A stretch of DNA of 63,549 bases from a virus, in the IMG/VR virus record IMGVR_UViG_3300021598_000208, positions 1 to 63,549 of that record; one strand, written 5' to 3'. The notes beneath the pieces are model-generated. The model saw only the letters and a list, made by a program, of their open reading frames with translations, did no database searches and was not told where the DNA came from. The position numbers were made by a program, and so were the translations under genes. Shown piece after piece: positions 16,999-39,030 of the stretch (positions are counted from its first letter, which is position 1; each line of letters begins with the position of its first letter).

Positions 16999-19900
16999 AG
17001 AGCAGTCTCTTGCAGATGAATTAGCTGATAGATTTAACGAGTCTCCTAATAAATTATTTAGTGATGATGGAAAGTTAGATTTTGCTCAAAGCCTAAAAGA
17101 GATGGTTAAAGAAGGTGAGATTACTGAAGCGGAGGCTGATATAATGCGTAAGTATAAGTCAGATATACTCCCTCAAGTAGAGTCAAAAAAAATGACCGAG
17201 CAAGAAATTGCAGAAGAGAAGGAAGGTTTAATAAGAGAGATTGAAGATGCTAATGTTGATTCAAGTGGTTTGCCTACGGCAGATGAGCGTTCATTGGCAA
17301 ATCAATTAAGAGACCTAATCAAAACAAAAGCAATCGACAAGCTGAACAATACAGACTTGAAGAATTTGCTTAAAGTAATTAGCAACATCAACAATAATTA
17401 CTTGCCTCATTTTGCTCAGGTATTGGTAGAAAAAATGAATGCTATCAATGAGGGAGAGAAGTTATCTTCTGCGGTAGGGAAAGCAAAACTGCCTAAACTA
17501 TCTACATTGTACGCTAAGTTCAAAAATTTATTTACCGGTAAGGGTGCTACTCTTGAGTTGGTTAGAAGAAGTCCTCTTTACTATATAGACCAAGTGTTTG
17601 GTAACTTTAAAACTAAGGACATCTACAACTCACTATTGAAGAAAGCGGCTCAAGGTGAAGCAAGATTTACATCAGAACTAAAGAAGGTTCAGAATATATT
17701 AGAAAGAGCAGAAGAGAAGGTTGCTAAGTCATTTGACCTTGATGGGAATGACACATTGATGTCTAAATTCAAGATGATGACCTATATGATTCAGCTTGAG
17801 TATGATTCAAACGTAGGGGATAAACAAGTTAATCCTGCAGCTGATTATCTTAAAGCTACAATCAAACATATTGATGAAGGCAAATCTCAATTTGGTGAGC
17901 GTGATGCAGAGATGCTACAAGACATACTTAACAAGTACGGAAAAGTTGTAGGCAAGGATGAGAATGGTAAAGACATTATTGAGATAGACAATCAGAAGCT
18001 GTACGATTCATTTAACAAAGCAGAGAAGGATGCCATTAAGGATATTCGTGGTATCAATGAGTCATTAAGAGGTAAGGCTGAGTATACTGCAGCAATTATT
18101 CGTGGCGATAAAATCAGTCCACTAAATAACTACGTACACTTAAACGTACTTCACGAGACTCAACCTAATGAGTTGACATCAGGCTCTGCCTTTATCACTG
18201 AGTTCAACAACTCAATGAGACCATCTACAAAGGCTAAGTCTTTGATAGCAAGAACAGGTAAGGTTTCTCCTTTGAACTTTGATGTGTTTGCATCTGCTCA
18301 GCGTGGCGCTAAGTTTGTATTGATGGATTACAATTTAACTGAGCCAATCAGGACTGCTCGTAAGACGCTTAATCAGGCTCTTTTAAACTTGGAGGAGCAA
18401 GGAAGAATACCTAAGGAAAACAGACAGGTATTTAATGCCATAAGAGATGCGTTTGAAGAGGCTGTTGAGAATCTTTTGACCAACTCTTATATCTCAAATG
18501 CTTTCTTAGATAATGTCATTGATTACATAAACAAGCAAGGTTACAGAGCCGTTCTCGCAGGAACAAGCAGATTTGTATCAGAGTTAAGTTCAAACATCTC
18601 GTTTGCAATTATTTCGGACCCGAGCGCATTTAAGACAGGTTACGATAATAGAGATGTGATTATGTCTACTGATGCTCCTACTATTATGAGTAATGTAGGT
18701 AGTACTCAAACAAGTAGAATCTTCCCTACTGATACTTTATCAGGCAAGTTGATTGACACAAACGTATTGAACCAAGCGAATGGTATTAAGGGCGGTAAAG
18801 CAAAAGGATATATTGCCAATAAAATTCAACAACTATTTAACCGTACAGGTAAAAAGTATTTGAACACTGTAGAGTTAACAGCAGATGCTTTAATATCTAC
18901 ACCGGATAAGATTGTAATGCGTCCTATTTGGTTTGGTTCATTTGCAAATGAGTTTAAAAAGATTACAGGCAAAGACGTAAACTTTGATAAGATTGCTGCC
19001 AACGATGAGGCTTATATGTCTCAGAACAAAGAGGCGATTGATAAGTCAAAGAACTTTGCTGACGAGCGTTCTGTGTTTACGGGTGCTTCAGATAATGCGT
19101 TTATGGGAATCCTAAAAGGAACTCCTAAACCTAATCAAAGCGGATGGTTAAGAGCGTTTAATAACTTTAATAACTTTATGACTCGCTTCTTGATATTTGA
19201 ATATGCTACTGCACGTGCAGGTATCAATGCTGCTATAGGCAATGGCTCAATGACTAAGAAGGAAGGTGCTGCATTGGTTGCTGCGGTTACCACTCGTATG
19301 ATGGTATACAGCTTACTAACTCAGGCTTTAGGTAATGGTCTTATGGGTCTATTCTTTGATGACGAGGAGGAAGAAAATGACGATACAATCCTTCAAAACA
19401 TTGGTCAAGCATTTGCATCTGCATTCTCTTCAATAGCATTGGGTAGAGACTTTGGTAACGCTACGAAACTATTCATTAACGAAGGAGTAGAACGTGCCAA
19501 TGAAGAATACCTTGACTTTTTAAGAACAGGAGAGTACGATAGATACGAAGATAATATCCAAAACTCTTTAGTCCCTCAAGAAAAGAAAGGAAGACAAACA
19601 GGTGTTTGGGATTATGTTAAAAATATGGGAGGAGCATTTACTCCTATTTTAAAGACTACAGATTTAATCATCAAGAATAAAACTGCTGCTGAACCTAAAA
19701 CAGCAGAAGCTATAAAGAGAAGAGAGAAAGAAAGCAATATTCGTATTCCTTTAGAGATTGCCGGCAACTTAGGTCTTGTTCCTATGTATAAGGATATTAG
19801 AAAGGCGGCTATGAACGACATCTATAAAGACCTTGACAAGAATAAGGGTGTAGAGGTAGAGCCTTTAAGTGAGAATCAAAATGACCAAATTAAAGCACTT

Positions 19901-31506: not shown

Positions 31507-31530
31507 AGCCAATTAAATTTAATAAAATTT

Positions 31531-31580
31531 CCGTTTCATCCTTTTAGAATCATCAGTCGGGACAACTCATCCCGATACGG
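31531..31580 (-). ncRNA. Hammerhead ribozyme 3 (type III)
   Basis: Minus-strand RNA: stem III CCGU/ACGG, cleavage site GUA, stem I UCGGGA/UCCCGA (loop UGAGUUG), core CUGAUGA, a weak stem II (UUCU/GGAU with one mismatch and one G-U pair) and core GAAA. Cleavage is predicted between 31576 and 31575. It lies between the GATase/GGCT fusion gene and the 48-aa gene. Confidence 0.75.
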
Positions 31581-31586
31581 AGGGCA

Positions 31587-31602
31587 GTGTCTTTGAAGAC
31601 AC
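31587..31602. repeat. Copy of 16-bp palindrome, just upstream of ribozyme 3
   Basis: GTGTCTTTGAAGACAC, extended by AGGG/CCCT beyond a CA/CA mismatch, giving a stem-loop that would cap the 3' end of the RNA released by the ribozyme. Confidence 0.85.
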
Positions 31603-31617
31603 CACCCTGAGCCAAGA

Positions 31618-32718
31618 CTAAGGTCGGAATCGTAGAACCTCAGTCTCAGTGAACCACTCATCGCAACCACTACAATGGTAGTTCGCAAACATATCGTGCT
31701 CTAAATCGTGGAAGCAATTTACACAAAACGGCTTCTCATTCTCGATGTCGAAGTCACAATCATCGCAATCATCATCCAATATGTCAAGCAGGTTTAACTG
31801 AACGCCACTGCTCGCAGGAATAAACTCTTCACTCTCCAATTCGTCCTGCTCATCATACCAAGCAAGTTTGTTTGAATACTGCTCGTATGTCTTATGGTGC
31901 TCCTCGCCTTTGCCACTCTGCTTGCTGTTGAAATATATCCAACAGGTAACGCTCTTACCTTTGAGCATAACCTGAATTAGTTTCCTCCTGTACCAAACAG
32001 GATGTCCCTCCAATGCGTCCAACTGCGTAAGCGTGTAATTACTTACTTTGAATACATCGACATCGACATTGTGCCCTGTGCCTTTGTCCTCAATCAGATA
32101 GGGCAATCCTTTAATCACTAATGGATACTTGTCTTTTGTCTCGCCACTGCCTAAAAATTTTGAGGTAGTAAGGTAACGGTTGTAATTGCTGTAACCTTTT
32201 TTTAGCGTGCCATATACAGCAATCAAATGGTCTTCAAAGACATTGTCTTTGCTGTACCAAACGCCATCCCTGTGTGTCCACAATTCTCTGTTGTAAATTT
32301 GAAATGTCCGGCTGAATGTATTGATGGTCACGAATCTGCAATCAAACTGCTCAAGATGACTTTTCCACTTGTGACGTGGAATTTCTCCGAGGTTCTCTGC
32401 CAAATGGCGTGAGTCACTTTTCTTTGCTGTGCCTAATGTACGGATAGTCCCGTTCATCATAAGCCACTCCTGTTTGTTGCTGCCGCATCTGAATGGGTGC
32501 GTGTTCTCTTTGTTGATAGCGCCAATGGTAGCATACCTGAAATGCGCAATGTAAGGTCTGTCTGTGTAAAGTACTTTGTACTCTGTAGATTTGTGGTAAG
32601 ATACCTCAAAAGTATCCAACCAAATAACGCCAAGTCCGTGAGGGTTTATTCTCGCTGATGTCTTAGCAACTTCTTTCGGGACAACTCGTCCCTTTTGCTT
32701 GATAATGATAACGCACAT
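31618..32718 (-). CDS. Class II glutamine amidotransferase / gamma-glutamylcyclotransferase fusion
   Basis: 366 aa from the ATG at 32718, chosen because it puts the catalytic Cys at position 2 (MCVIII), as Ntn-type class II amidotransferases need. The GATase domain has AHFRYATIG (R61), THPF, MNGTI (N89, G90) and SDS (D102). The second domain is GGCT/AIG2-like: YGTLKKG (169-175) and LDALEGHPVWYRR with the likely catalytic E237. The C-terminus holds a zinc-ribbon CVNC...CSGC. Predicted chemistry: release of ammonia from glutamine amides and cyclisation of gamma-glutamyl amines. It sits in the same early block as an amidoligase (34321), suggesting a shared pathway. Confidence 0.85.
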   Translation of the reverse strand: MCVIIIKQKGRVVPKEVAKTSARINPHGLGVIWLDTFEVSYHKSTEYKVLYTDRPYIAHFRYATIGAINKENTHPFRCGSNKQEWLMMNGTIRTLGTAKKSDSRHLAENLGEIPRHKWKSHLEQFDCRFVTINTFSRTFQIYNRELWTHRDGVWYSKDNVFEDHLIAVYGTLKKGYSNYNRYLTTSKFLGSGETKDKYPLVIKGLPYLIEDKGTGHNVDVDVFKVSNYTLTQLDALEGHPVWYRRKLIQVMLKGKSVTCWIYFNSKQSGKGEEHHKTYEQYSNKLAWYDEQDELESEEFIPASSGVQLNLLDILDDDCDDCDFDIENEKPFCVNCFHDLEHDMFANYHCSGCDEWFTETEVLRFRP

Positions 32719-32738
32719 ACTGATTTGATTTGTGGGCA

Positions 32739-32754
32739 GTGTCTTTGAAGACAC
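32739..32754. repeat. Copy of 16-bp palindrome upstream of GATase/GGCT gene
   Basis: GTGTCTTTGAAGACAC, 20 bases before the start codon and within the leader after the promoter-like box at 32811-32818. Confidence 0.85.
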
Positions 32755-33637: not shown

Positions 33638-33853
33638 TTACAATTGAACGCCTAAAACGTCCTTTAATGATTTTGAAATAAATTCGTGACCTCGGCTGAA
33701 TCTATCTTTGATAGTTATTCTGCCAATTTTTAAAGTCCACGTTCCATCTGAAAATTTTGTGATGGTTGACACAGGCGCTGTCTCATCAGGAATAAATCCT
33801 TCCTGTCTGAATACTCCCTGCACTTTCATAGTAAATAAAACATCTTGTCTCAT
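33638..33853 (-). CDS. Small hypothetical protein directly behind a hammerhead ribozyme (71 aa)
   Basis: The ATG at 33853 follows TTAAATCAAATCAA; an upstream extension would run through ribozyme 2 and is rejected. Strand-rich content (TMKVQGVFRQEGFIPDET, GTWTLKIGRITIKDRF). Function unknown. Confidence 0.5.
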   Translation of the reverse strand: MRQDVLFTMKVQGVFRQEGFIPDETAPVSTITKFSDGTWTLKIGRITIKDRFSRGHEFISKSLKDVLGVQL

Positions 33854-33874
33854 TTGATTTGATTTAAATGGTTT

Positions 33875-33925
33875 CCTGTTTCGTCCTGTTAGACTCATCA
33901 GGCAAGGCAAACACCTTGCGACAGG
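33875..33925 (-). ncRNA. Hammerhead ribozyme 2 (type III)
   Basis: Minus-strand RNA: stem III CCUGU/ACAGG, cleavage site GUC, stem I GCAAGG/CCUUGC with loop UGUUUG, core CUGAUGA, stem II GUC/GAC with loop UAACAG, core GAAA. Predicted cleavage between 33920 and 33919. Located 21 bases before the 71-aa gene. Confidence 0.85.
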
Positions 33926-33927
33926 CT

Positions 33928-33943
33928 GTGTCTTTGAAGACAC
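33928..33943. repeat. Copy of 16-bp palindrome, 2 bases upstream of ribozyme 2
   Basis: GTGTCTTTGAAGACAC extended to CTGTGTCTT/AAGACACAG, starting 9 bases after the stop of the 82-aa gene. Confidence 0.88.
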
Positions 33944-33952
33944 AGGCTCTTT

Positions 33953-34201
33953 TTAGAATCTGTGATACATCGACCCTTTTGCATTCGGGAAAACTGACCT
34001 ATCATATTTGTTGTTTTCAACCCATTTATCGTAACCTTCTAGCAATGCTTTGAACTCTGCCTCGTGGTTTACAGGGTCAAGTTTAACGCACATCAGGTTG
34101 TCCTCAATTTTAGAAAATTTAATTTTTGATTCTGTCAGGTAGCAATCCCACACTTTACTAAAATCAAAATAGTAATGCTCTTGAACGTTTTTAAATGTCA
34201 T
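33953..34201 (-). CDS. Small hypothetical protein (82 aa)
   Basis: Start at the ATG at 34201 (an upstream TTG lies in a hairpin between ribozyme and gene). The N-terminus TFKNVQEHYYFDFSKVWDCY is strand-like and the C-terminus contains FKALLEGYDKWVENNKYDRS. It lies between ribozymes 1 and 2. Function unknown. Confidence 0.5.
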   Translation of the reverse strand: MTFKNVQEHYYFDFSKVWDCYLTESKIKFSKIEDNLMCVKLDPVNHEAEFKALLEGYDKWVENNKYDRSVFPNAKGSMYHRF

Positions 34202-34234: not shown

Positions 34235-34244
34235 GGTTTTAAAT

Positions 34245-34295
34245 GCTGTTTCGTTCTTTTGAACTCATCAGGCAGAGCAAACACTCTGCGACAGC
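34245..34295 (-). ncRNA. Hammerhead ribozyme 1 (type III)
   Basis: Minus-strand RNA with all core parts intact: stem III GCUGU/ACAGC, cleavage site GUC, stem I GCAGAG/CUCUGC with loop UGUUUG, core CUGAUGA, stem II GUUC/GAAC closed by AAAA, core GAAA. Predicted cleavage between 34290 and 34289. It lies between the amidoligase and the 82-aa gene. Confidence 0.9.
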
Positions 34296-34296
34296 A

Positions 34297-34315
34297 GGAG
34301 GGCAATTTGCCCTCC
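34297..34315 (-). terminator. Stem-loop between amidoligase stop and ribozyme 1
   Basis: Perfect 9-bp inverted repeat GGAGGGCAA/TTGCCCTCC ending 1 base before the ribozyme. There is no T-run, so it looks more like a 3'-end cap for the cleaved RNA than a true terminator. Confidence 0.5.
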
Positions 34316-34320
34316 CTGTG

Positions 34321-35232
34321 TCAATTCTCAATCCATTTGAGGATGTCTTGGTGAACCTCTCCTGTAAGGATATATTTTTGAAATAGCTTCGACAATCTTA
34401 TTACTTCATTCACTTTGTCCTCATTCCCATTGTACATAGATTTTAAAATTGGCGTTACGATTTTAATCATCGAGTCAAATTTGCCCTTCTTATTCACTGC
34501 GAAATTCACAACCTCATACATTAACTCGTAACGCCTCATCATCTGCTTTACTGACTCAAAGCGAGACGGCAACCTGAACTCAAGGCAATTTTCTTTCACG
34601 AGCGCAACCTGATATTTGTAGTGCCAATCATAGCGACCTAAACGCCTTGCCTCATCCTCTGTTACCATCCTCTTATTTTTGTTGCAATAGCTATTTTTTA
34701 GCCTATTTCTAAACAGGGCATAGATGATGCCGGCATAATTACGAACCTCCAATCTAATCTCATTGCCTGTCATTCCCTCCACGCCTAAGGTTATGTGACC
34801 TCCGCAATTTTGAGCGGATGGGCTGAACTTGTCATCGATGATTTTCTCTGCCTTGTGCATCATATCAAAAACCTTCGTGCGCCACATTCCTGCAGGCAAT
34901 AGGGGTAAAATGTGAGTCACTGCCTCATACCCATCCACGCCCGGATGCTCGCCACAGCTTCCGTCACGCTCAAAACCGCAAAACAATTCATATTCACGTA
35001 CTGCGCCTCTGTGCAATGTGTTTTTTTCAACCTCCATTCCGATGGTAAATTTGGCGCTGTATTCCATCCCGTCAAATTTGATAACGTCCCTTTGCTGTGT
35101 CTTTTTAAGACCTGCGATGTCGATATTGCTTTTGCTCTTGTGTAACATTAGCGGAGCGGGTTTGTGATGGTATCTTGTCACTGAACCTCTCATGCTGTCT
35201 CCTGTGGTTGTGTAAACGATTCCTGTATTCAT
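34321..35232 (-). CDS. Putative amidoligase (GS-fold COOH-NH2 ligase, Amidoligase_2-like)
   Basis: 303 aa. The family pattern is visible in order: FTIGMEVEKN (E67, E69; metal/ATP site), ERDGSCG then GYEAVTHILP (residues 88-110, the DGS...E segment), QNCGGHITLG (G-G-H, 144-146), a helix YAGIIYALFRNRLKN, and NCLEFRLPSR (EFR, 218-220). These enzymes join carboxyl and amine groups using ATP. In comparative genomics they are linked to class II amidotransferases and AIG2/GGCT enzymes, and this window has exactly that fusion 1.6 kb downstream in the same orientation. The substrate is unknown. Confidence 0.75.
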   Translation of the reverse strand: MNTGIVYTTTGDSMRGSVTRYHHKPAPLMLHKSKSNIDIAGLKKTQQRDVIKFDGMEYSAKFTIGMEVEKNTLHRGAVREYELFCGFERDGSCGEHPGVDGYEAVTHILPLLPAGMWRTKVFDMMHKAEKIIDDKFSPSAQNCGGHITLGVEGMTGNEIRLEVRNYAGIIYALFRNRLKNSYCNKNKRMVTEDEARRLGRYDWHYKYQVALVKENCLEFRLPSRFESVKQMMRRYELMYEVVNFAVNKKGKFDSMIKIVTPILKSMYNGNEDKVNEVIRLSKLFQKYILTGEVHQDILKWIEN

Positions 35233-35249: not shown

Positions 35250-35265
35250 GTGTCTTTGAAGACAC
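35250..35265. repeat. Copy of 16-bp palindrome upstream of amidoligase
   Basis: GTGTCTTTGAAGACAC, 4 bases after the stop of the 216-aa gene and 17 bases before the amidoligase start. Confidence 0.85.
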
Positions 35266-36109: not shown

Positions 36110-36125
36110 GTGTCTTCAAAGACAC
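36110..36125. repeat. Copy of 16-bp palindrome in control region
   Basis: GTGTCTTCAAAGACAC at the left edge of the purine-rich tract. Confidence 0.85.
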
Positions 36126-37416: not shown

Positions 37417-39030
37417 ATGGTAGAAACGTCAGGAGTTGGGTATTCACCCAAGGATTTGCAGTTCGGTTCGGACGGCAGAAAGAAACTTATCAGTGGTGTA
37501 GTAAAGATGTCTAAGGCTGTTAAGTCAACGCTTGGACCAAGTGGTAACACTGTACTCATTGAGAGTCCACATCACACACACGGCATTACAGTTACCAAAG
37601 ATGGTGTAACAGTTGCCAAGTCAATTGACCTCATTGACCCAAGCGAGAACCTTGCGGTTAAGATGATGAAAGAAGCGGCAGACAAGACAGCTACCGCTGC
37701 CGGTGATGGTACAACCACAGCGATTGTCTTGACTGAAGGATTGGTACTTGGTGGACTTGAGCATATCAAAGAGGATATGAACAGGACTGAGGTGCTGAGA
37801 CATATGGTGGACATTAGTAACAAGGTGGTGGACAAGTTAAGACGTAAGGCAAAGAAAGTGAGCAGCACGATGTTATTGGATGTGGCATCAATAAGTGCCA
37901 ACAATGACAGAGAGATTGGTCGCATTATTGCTGAGGTGTATAAAGACGTAGGTAAGACCGGTATTGTTACAGTGGAGAGAAGCCAAACGGCAGACACATA
38001 TGCTGAGACGACCAAGGGATTGAAGTTTGACAGGGGGTATTTGAGTCCGATGTTTATCAATGACGTGAAAAAGGACGAGTGTGTGTTTGAGGATGTGATG
38101 GTATTGGTAGCTGATATGGAGATAGCTAACATCCTGCAGATTGAAAACGTGTTGAAGCCAATCATTAGTGAGGGAAAGAAGCTACTTATCATTTCTCCGT
38201 GTAATACAAACGTGGTTAACACGCTTGCAGCGAACACAGTGAAGGGGAATTTGAAAGTGGTGGCTGTGCCTCCGCCTAATTTTGGCTACAAGCAGCACGA
38301 GTTGATGCAAGATATTGCGATTAGTGTAGGAGCAACCTACTATAGTGAGAAGACGGGTGATGATTTGAGCCATATCAACTACGGAGACTTAGGTCACGCA
38401 GGGAAAGTTATTGTGAGCAAGGACAAAACTGTGATTATTCGCAGTGCAGCCAAGGCTGACCAAGCAGCAATTGATGAAAGAGTGGCTCAATTGTGGGAGG
38501 CACATAGTCAAGCGACTAAAAAAGCGGACAAAGACTTCTTATTGGAGAGAATAGCGTCACTTACAGGTGGCATTGGTGTAATATTCGTAGGTGGTCAGAC
38601 TGACCTTGAGCAAAAAGAGTTGTATGATAGAGTTGATGATGCAGTTTGTGCAGTACGTTCCGCACTTGAGGAGGGTATTTTACCGGGTGCCGGCAAAGCG
38701 TTACTTGATGAGAGTGCTGAGATTGAAATGTTAGGCACAAGTCGTGAGTATGAGGCAGCAGTTAACATTGTTCGCAACGCTCTTATGGCTCCATTCCAAC
38801 AAATCTTGGCTAACGCAGGATTGAAACCAAGTGATGTGTACAAAGAAGGTACGCCTGTTGGTCACGGATACAACCTAAAGACCGGTCAGATGGGTGACTT
38901 GGTGCAGATGGGTGTAATTGACCCGTTAAAGGTGACACGCAGTGCGCTTCAAAACGCAATCAGTGTAGCTGTAACCATCCTAAGTACAAACGCAATTATC
39001 ACAATGGCTCGTAGCTACGAGCAACAATAG
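37417..39030 (+). CDS. groEL: Phage-encoded chaperonin GroEL (Hsp60)
   Basis: 537 aa, close to the bacterial length. Conserved elements: VKSTLGPSGNTVLIES, VTKDGVTVAKSIDL (ATP-site Asp), AAGDGTTTAIVLTE (GDGTTT), DRGYLSPMFIND, and the late YDRVDDAVCAVRSALEEGIL with the expected Asp. The Gly-Gly-Met tail of host GroEL is absent; it ends MARSYEQQ. Divergence from host proteins is evident in the apical domain. It probably folds capsid or other phage proteins, working with the GroES homologue two genes on. Confidence 0.92.
   Translation: MVETSGVGYSPKDLQFGSDGRKKLISGVVKMSKAVKSTLGPSGNTVLIESPHHTHGITVTKDGVTVAKSIDLIDPSENLAVKMMKEAADKTATAAGDGTTTAIVLTEGLVLGGLEHIKEDMNRTEVLRHMVDISNKVVDKLRRKAKKVSSTMLLDVASISANNDREIGRIIAEVYKDVGKTGIVTVERSQTADTYAETTKGLKFDRGYLSPMFINDVKKDECVFEDVMVLVADMEIANILQIENVLKPIISEGKKLLIISPCNTNVVNTLAANTVKGNLKVVAVPPPNFGYKQHELMQDIAISVGATYYSEKTGDDLSHINYGDLGHAGKVIVSKDKTVIIRSAAKADQAAIDERVAQLWEAHSQATKKADKDFLLERIASLTGGIGVIFVGGQTDLEQKELYDRVDDAVCAVRSALEEGILPGAGKALLDESAEIEMLGTSREYEAAVNIVRNALMAPFQQILANAGLKPSDVYKEGTPVGHGYNLKTGQMGDLVQMGVIDPLKVTRSALQNAISVAVTILSTNAIITMARSYEQQ

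Follow-up and report, generated by a model that had tools for sequence, protein, structure and literature searches.

The window, that is, the whole 63,549-nucleotide stretch of IMG/VR record IMGVR_UViG_3300021598_000208, holds three type III hammerhead ribozymes when searched with RF00008, all on the same strand and all intergenic within one leftward operon. The first, HH1 (34244..34296, minus strand, GUC site, G10.1-C11.1), lies 3' of a gene for a 303-aa protein (34321..35232, minus strand, with its stop at 34321) and 5' of a gene for an 82-aa protein (33953..34201, minus strand, ATG 34201). In an earlier sequence-only reading of this DNA the 303-aa gene had been called an amidoligase, a name that finds no support: the protein has no match in Pfam, even at E ≤ 10, or in PHROGs. 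The second ribozyme, HH2 (33875..33925, minus strand, GUC site, G10.1-C11.1; predicted cut 33920/33919), is directly followed on its 3' side by a gene for a 71-aa protein (33638..33853, minus strand, ATG 33853). The longest open reading frame at this place (33638-33943) would start at GTG 33943 and read through HH2; ATG 33853 is the likelier start. HH3 (31530..31581, minus strand; predicted cut 31576/31575) belongs to a second class with a GUA site and a U31549.U31538 mismatch at 10.1/11.1, and is placed between a gamma-glutamyl cyclotransferase-like gene with a weak GATase match (31618..32754, minus strand) and a small gene starting at ATG 31506. In the product of the former, the gamma-glutamyl cyclotransferase domain is joined to an N-terminus that weakly resembles class-II amidotransferases. 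Elsewhere in the window (37417-39030) the phage encodes a GroEL.

The sequence-only reading had placed a complete hammerhead on the minus strand at HH1, and every part of it was located between 34296 and 34244. Stem III pairs U34296-GCUGU-34291 with A34249-CAGCA-34244; the 5 bp first given for it become 6 bp once the outer U-A pair is included. Residue C17 is C34290, stem I comprises 6 bp (34289-34284 / 34277-34272) closed by the loop UGUUUG, the core CUGAUGA occupies 34271-34265 and GAA 34252-34250, and stem II is formed by GUUC/GAAC (34264-34261 / 34256-34253) with the loop AAAA. The CUGANGA core with GAA, the A15.1-U16.1 pair and the NUH site that mark members of RF00008 are all present, and the predicted fold of HH1 in isolation is the hammerhead secondary structure, with a cut predicted between 34290 and 34289, as before. 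None of the hammerhead-like matches in 200 randomized versions of the window, drawn from a first-order Markov model, had stems as long as 8/4/6 or 8/4/5, in keeping with the earlier judgement that a chance assembly of the parts is unlikely. The Rfam search that had been proposed as a check matches HH1 to RF00008 (Hammerhead_3) with 42.3 bits (E 7.8e-6, whole window), which lies below the gathering cut-off of 48.5 bits, a curated search threshold and no structural feature. HH2 (37.9 bits) and HH3 (32.1 bits) likewise stay below it, and HH1 is overlooked by default Rfam annotation because of its score. A covariance model built from this lineage, R1, gives 78.7, 72.1 and 73.7 bits for HH1, HH2 and HH3, respectively. 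HH1 is a canonical type III hammerhead ribozyme, and self-cleavage is predicted for it.

Structural conservation and coupled sequence classes

Among 132 distinct relative sequences aligned for covariation, 97.1% of the stem cells are paired; sliding the partner strand lowers this share to 33-41%. Double-sided compensatory changes occur in 12 of the 15 stem pairs, and the covariation score of the stems was reached by none of the shuffles. Two of the remaining pairs, 15.1-16.1 and 15.2-16.2, never vary, and the third is 10.1-11.1. Stems that fail to covary among related phages had been named beforehand as a result that would refute the ribozyme; clearly the opposite was found. Columns C3-A6, G8, A9, G12-A14 and the pair 15.1-16.1 are invariant, while N7 varies. 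All three helices are supported by covariation and stem III is open, so that the set shares with Hammerhead_3 the three-stem junction, the CUGANGA...GAA core, the NUH cleavage site and the open stem III; it differs in its set-specific loop I (UGNGUG) and loop II (NAAA), as well as in an abutting hairpin that lies outside the Rfam model. Loop I, mostly UG(U/A)GUG, and loop II are nearly fixed while the stems vary freely (alignment A2, columns 17-23 and 42-46), which may reflect one conserved tertiary contact. Between the two loops the 132 sequences hold no covariation signal, and a Watson-Crick pseudoknot, at which UGUU/AACA in HH2 had hinted, was dropped for this reason.

The ribozymes fall into two classes, one combining G10.1-C11.1 with C17 sites and the other U10.1.U11.1 with A17 or U17 sites; HH1 and HH2 belong to the former (G-C/GUC) and HH3 to the latter (U.U/GUA). 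A mismatch at 10.1/11.1 is present in 19 of the 132 sequences (U.U, or A.A twice), none of which has C17, and in a mutual-information ranking the column pairs that join residue 17 to 10.1-11.1 come immediately below the stem pairs. Before a second scan, whose pattern left residue 17 open, it was predicted that C17 would be missing from at least 90% of the new members with U.U. Indeed, A or U was found at this position in 45 of 47 new U.U members, compared with 26 of 108 in the G-C class. The coupling persists when sequences are clustered at 80-85% identity; at 85%, C17 occurs in 0/23 (U.U) and 26/36 (G-C), respectively (Fisher P 9e-9). The U.U class stands before 49 protein families, and several families hold both classes, with C17 in their G-C members. 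A single ancestral event is therefore insufficient, and a founder effect was rejected as the sole cause of the coupling, which also withstands clustering. The U10.1-U11.1 mismatch itself, carried by HH3 and its class, is a reported natural hammerhead variant (PMC3088659), and the sections of that article available to us hold no mention of a coupling to A17 or U17.

A hairpin cassette at gene junctions

Stop codon, hairpin, ribozyme and start codon nearly always follow each other in the same order. The next ATG (of an open reading frame of at least 40 codons) is found at a median of 22 nt from the ribozyme, compared with 209 nt at random in the same contigs, and the upstream stop codon at a median of 30 nt, compared with 227 nt. 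Immediately on the 5' side of stem III, mostly 1-2 nt away from it, a stable hairpin with a stem of at least 7 bp is present in 83% of cases, as against 2.3% in shuffled sequence and 6% on the downstream side. These hairpins comprise 85 distinct stems, with UCAA, UUCG or GNRA-type loops. All three copies in the window show the cassette: GGAGGGC-AAATT-GCCCTCC (34297..34315, minus strand) adjoins the 5' side of HH1 stem III, CTGTGTCT-TCAA-AGACACAG (33926..33945, minus strand) adjoins HH2 and GGGTGGTGTCT-TCAA-AGACACTGCCC (31582..31607, minus strand) adjoins HH3. Intrinsic terminators were considered and rejected, since the hairpins run straight into stem III and a T-run is absent after those of HH1-HH3. 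Type I hammerheads, which also occur in these phages, begin at the upstream stop codon and have their own hairpin III beside the cut, so that after cleavage by either type the upstream message would end in a hairpin.

When the full cassette is folded, with loop-loop contacts uncounted, hairpin and hammerhead together cost 3.8 kcal/mol for HH1 and 0.3 kcal/mol for HH2 relative to the best fold. The competing fold of HH1 extends the hairpin into the cleavage-site strand (-41.6 vs -37.8 kcal/mol, single-strand folding). Permuted upstream sequences, however, compete with the ribozyme no less than the hairpin does. An evolved switch, by which the hairpin would lock away the strand with the cleavage site, was rejected because the energy gaps from the hammerhead fold to the best fold do not differ from those of the permuted sequences and thus give no sign of one.

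The same hairpin, GTGTCTTCAAAGACAC, is also located on the minus strand at two gene junctions that carry no ribozyme (35250..35265 and 32739..32754), and was also seen at a ribozyme-free junction at 36110-36125 of the window. In two relatives (L103 and L105) the same hairpin serves as stem III of a type I hammerhead.

Distribution in a podophage lineage

A search of IMG/VR with the 303-aa upstream protein, made irrespective of ribozymes, found 12 further contigs and another that is 100% identical in the protein. Of the 11 non-identical, full-length relatives, eight (L004-L011) have type III hammerheads, and in seven (L005-L011) one stands directly after this gene, at 50-63% amino acid identity. 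Out of 13 hammerhead matches in the relatives just one passes the Rfam gathering cut-off, and most scored members escape default annotation because they fall below it. Covariation, synteny and context lend strong support to two proposals of the sequence-only reading, namely the identity of the element as a hammerhead and its intergenic position as a putative processing element. A strict DNA pattern for the type III hammerhead was found in at least 120 viral contigs, and R1, run on 39 whole IMG/VR records, most of which had been picked for a pattern match, gave one to five type III copies in 37, all copies within each record sharing one strand. In 33 of the 39 records the terminase is 64-100% identical to that of the window. 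By contrast, neither ribozyme model finds a match in the complete genome of the relative MW202828, whose terminase is 78% identical, and the element is therefore dispensable; the hammerheads are a lineage-wide feature of these aquatic phages, though not a universal one. In INPHARED, a near-DNA search with 6 kb around HH1 matched nothing, and a search with 71 nt gave chance matches alone.

The phage had been labelled crAss-like, an assignment that was rejected on the evidence of the terminase, whose relatives lie elsewhere. The 87 phage records that match it at E ≤ 1e-5 comprise flavobacterial phages and an unclassified podovirus; the taxonomy lines checked read Elemovirus, Pachyviridae, Pervagoviridae or unclassified Caudoviricetes, with no Crassvirales among them. 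Next to MW202828, identity to the window terminase is 44% for Elemovirus and 31-39% for Pachyviridae and Pervagoviridae.

Type I hammerheads form arrays of seven in two places, one in L049, within about 9 kb, and one in G024 (the record of L066), within about 16 kb. The strict type III pattern was also seen in 25 bacterial contigs (L140-L164), mostly from Patescibacteria/CPR metagenome-assembled genomes, with Polynucleobacter and Henriciella genomes also among them; they score 46-74 bits with R1, and the abutting hairpin is present in some. The open-access literature searched holds no article linking type III hammerheads to these bacterial groups.

Candidate roles in early transcripts and related systems

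It appears probable that the ribozymes punctuate early polycistronic RNA, generating messages with hairpin-capped, protected 3' ends and, downstream, a stem I hairpin with a 5'-OH. HH1 would act in cis on the early leftward RNA, separating the 303-aa gene from the 82-aa gene, and together with HH2 it would release a 370-nt message (34289-33920, bounded by the two predicted cuts) for the 82-aa protein, so that HH1, HH2 and HH3 would divide the polycistronic RNA into segments the size of single genes. The upstream message would keep the abutting hairpin, with about 7 nt between it and the terminal 2',3'-cyclic phosphate, as protection of its 3' end. The downstream message would begin with stem I as a hairpin bearing a 5'-OH, some 20-45 nt before the start codon, where it may protect or insulate the 5' end. 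With a hairpin-capped 3' end on one side and a stem I 5' end on the other, the cassette would therefore replace a terminator and a promoter at gene junctions.

The leader position near the start codon, as well as the second class (U.U with A/U17), which looks tuned, would also suit ribozymes that cleave chiefly to lower expression, through loss of the leader or uncoupling of translation and destabilization of the downstream RNA, perhaps under the control of a factor or ligand. However, the conserved parts comprise the hairpin and the core alone, with an aptamer-like domain absent, the competition between hairpin and ribozyme does not exceed that with permuted upstream sequence, and the downstream genes are highly varied and unrelated (66 and 49 families), which makes this explanation unlikely. 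Still less weight is given to a hairpin unrelated to mRNA ends, which would insulate the ribozyme from upstream sequence or stack on stem III for co-transcriptional folding: the gap of 1-2 nt in most cases and the shortness of stem III (4-6 bp) fit, but the same hairpin is present at ribozyme-free junctions and the hammerhead fold is no more favourable with the hairpins than with permuted upstream sequence. Since two hammerheads flank a single small gene, HH1 and HH2 could also excise a small 370-nt RNA that may circularise like viroid-like or retrozyme elements. This seems very improbable, as the stems of HH1 and HH2 differ and the enclosed RNA is a gene. Copies in the window and its relatives lie between genes, differ from one another and, in many records, occur singly or far apart, unlike the tandem hammerheads that delimit a circular RNA unit in such elements. 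Furthermore, in comparable arrays circular or spliced products were sought and not found (PMC3088659). The least credible reading is an inactive relic or a chance look-alike. The score below Rfam gathering could be cited for it, but the stems covary, the core is invariant and relatives with 50-63% identity retain the ribozyme at the corresponding junction.

As for the two classes, C17 and G10.1-C11.1 are the consensus states of the hammerhead, and departures from them usually slow cleavage; the classes are taken as fast and slow versions for this reason. If the ribozymes punctuate early RNA, a fast class (G10.1-C11.1, GUC) and a slow class (U10.1.U11.1, GUA/GUU) might set, for each junction, the speed and completeness of cutting into hairpin-capped messages, and hence the stoichiometry of the products. 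This extension is offered tentatively, with rather less than even confidence, and compensation is an alternative reading of the coupling. The classes bear directly on hammerhead chemistry, and if the two-speed reading is true, the coupling of residue 17 to 10.1/11.1 would amount to a new structural or kinetic rule for the hammerhead.

The role of prokaryotic hammerheads, which have been tied to phages, was described as an open question in a 2017 review (PMC6155905). Multiple hammerheads that flank single genes in prophages were reported before, with processing into gene-length messages proposed, and clustered prophage hammerheads cleave native transcripts of about 2 kb in vitro, with cleavage also shown inside E. 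coli cells (Perreault et al., 2011; PMC3088659). Hence the ribozyme belongs to an established family, and its arrangement in the operon is likewise of a kind already known: as in those clusters, several coding-strand ribozymes, three in the window, flank small genes. The present set differs in its flavobacterial-type podophages, the mixture of types I and III, the conserved 5' hairpin and the coupled cleavage-site classes. In the open-access literature available to us no description was found of the hairpin cassette, of types I and III mixed in one podophage lineage or of the coupled classes, which seem new, and the 2011 dataset may include some members. In a set this large, coherent and uniform in architecture, the loose idea of a role in RNA processing gives way to predictions that can be tested.

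Cultured relatives make the idea testable in infected cells. In Elemovirus (Flavobacterium phages, MT497017 and relatives) one type III match of 39.5 bits is present in 5/5 elemo species tested, and elemoA 7-9A, the one tested with model R2, has in addition one type I match of 51.7 bits; each copy lies about 20 nt before an ATG, as in the window lineage. Cleavage of MT497017 RNA is predicted, on the minus strand, at 19132/19131 for the type III and at 17296/17295 for the type I copy. The type III copy differs in having no obvious 5' hairpin, and the terminase is the more distant one given above. In Flavobacterium phage elemoA (L137:17290-17347 and 17275-17382) the type I hammerhead is overlain on the opposite strand by an annotated 35-aa plus-strand open reading frame, QLF85237.1, which is probably spurious.
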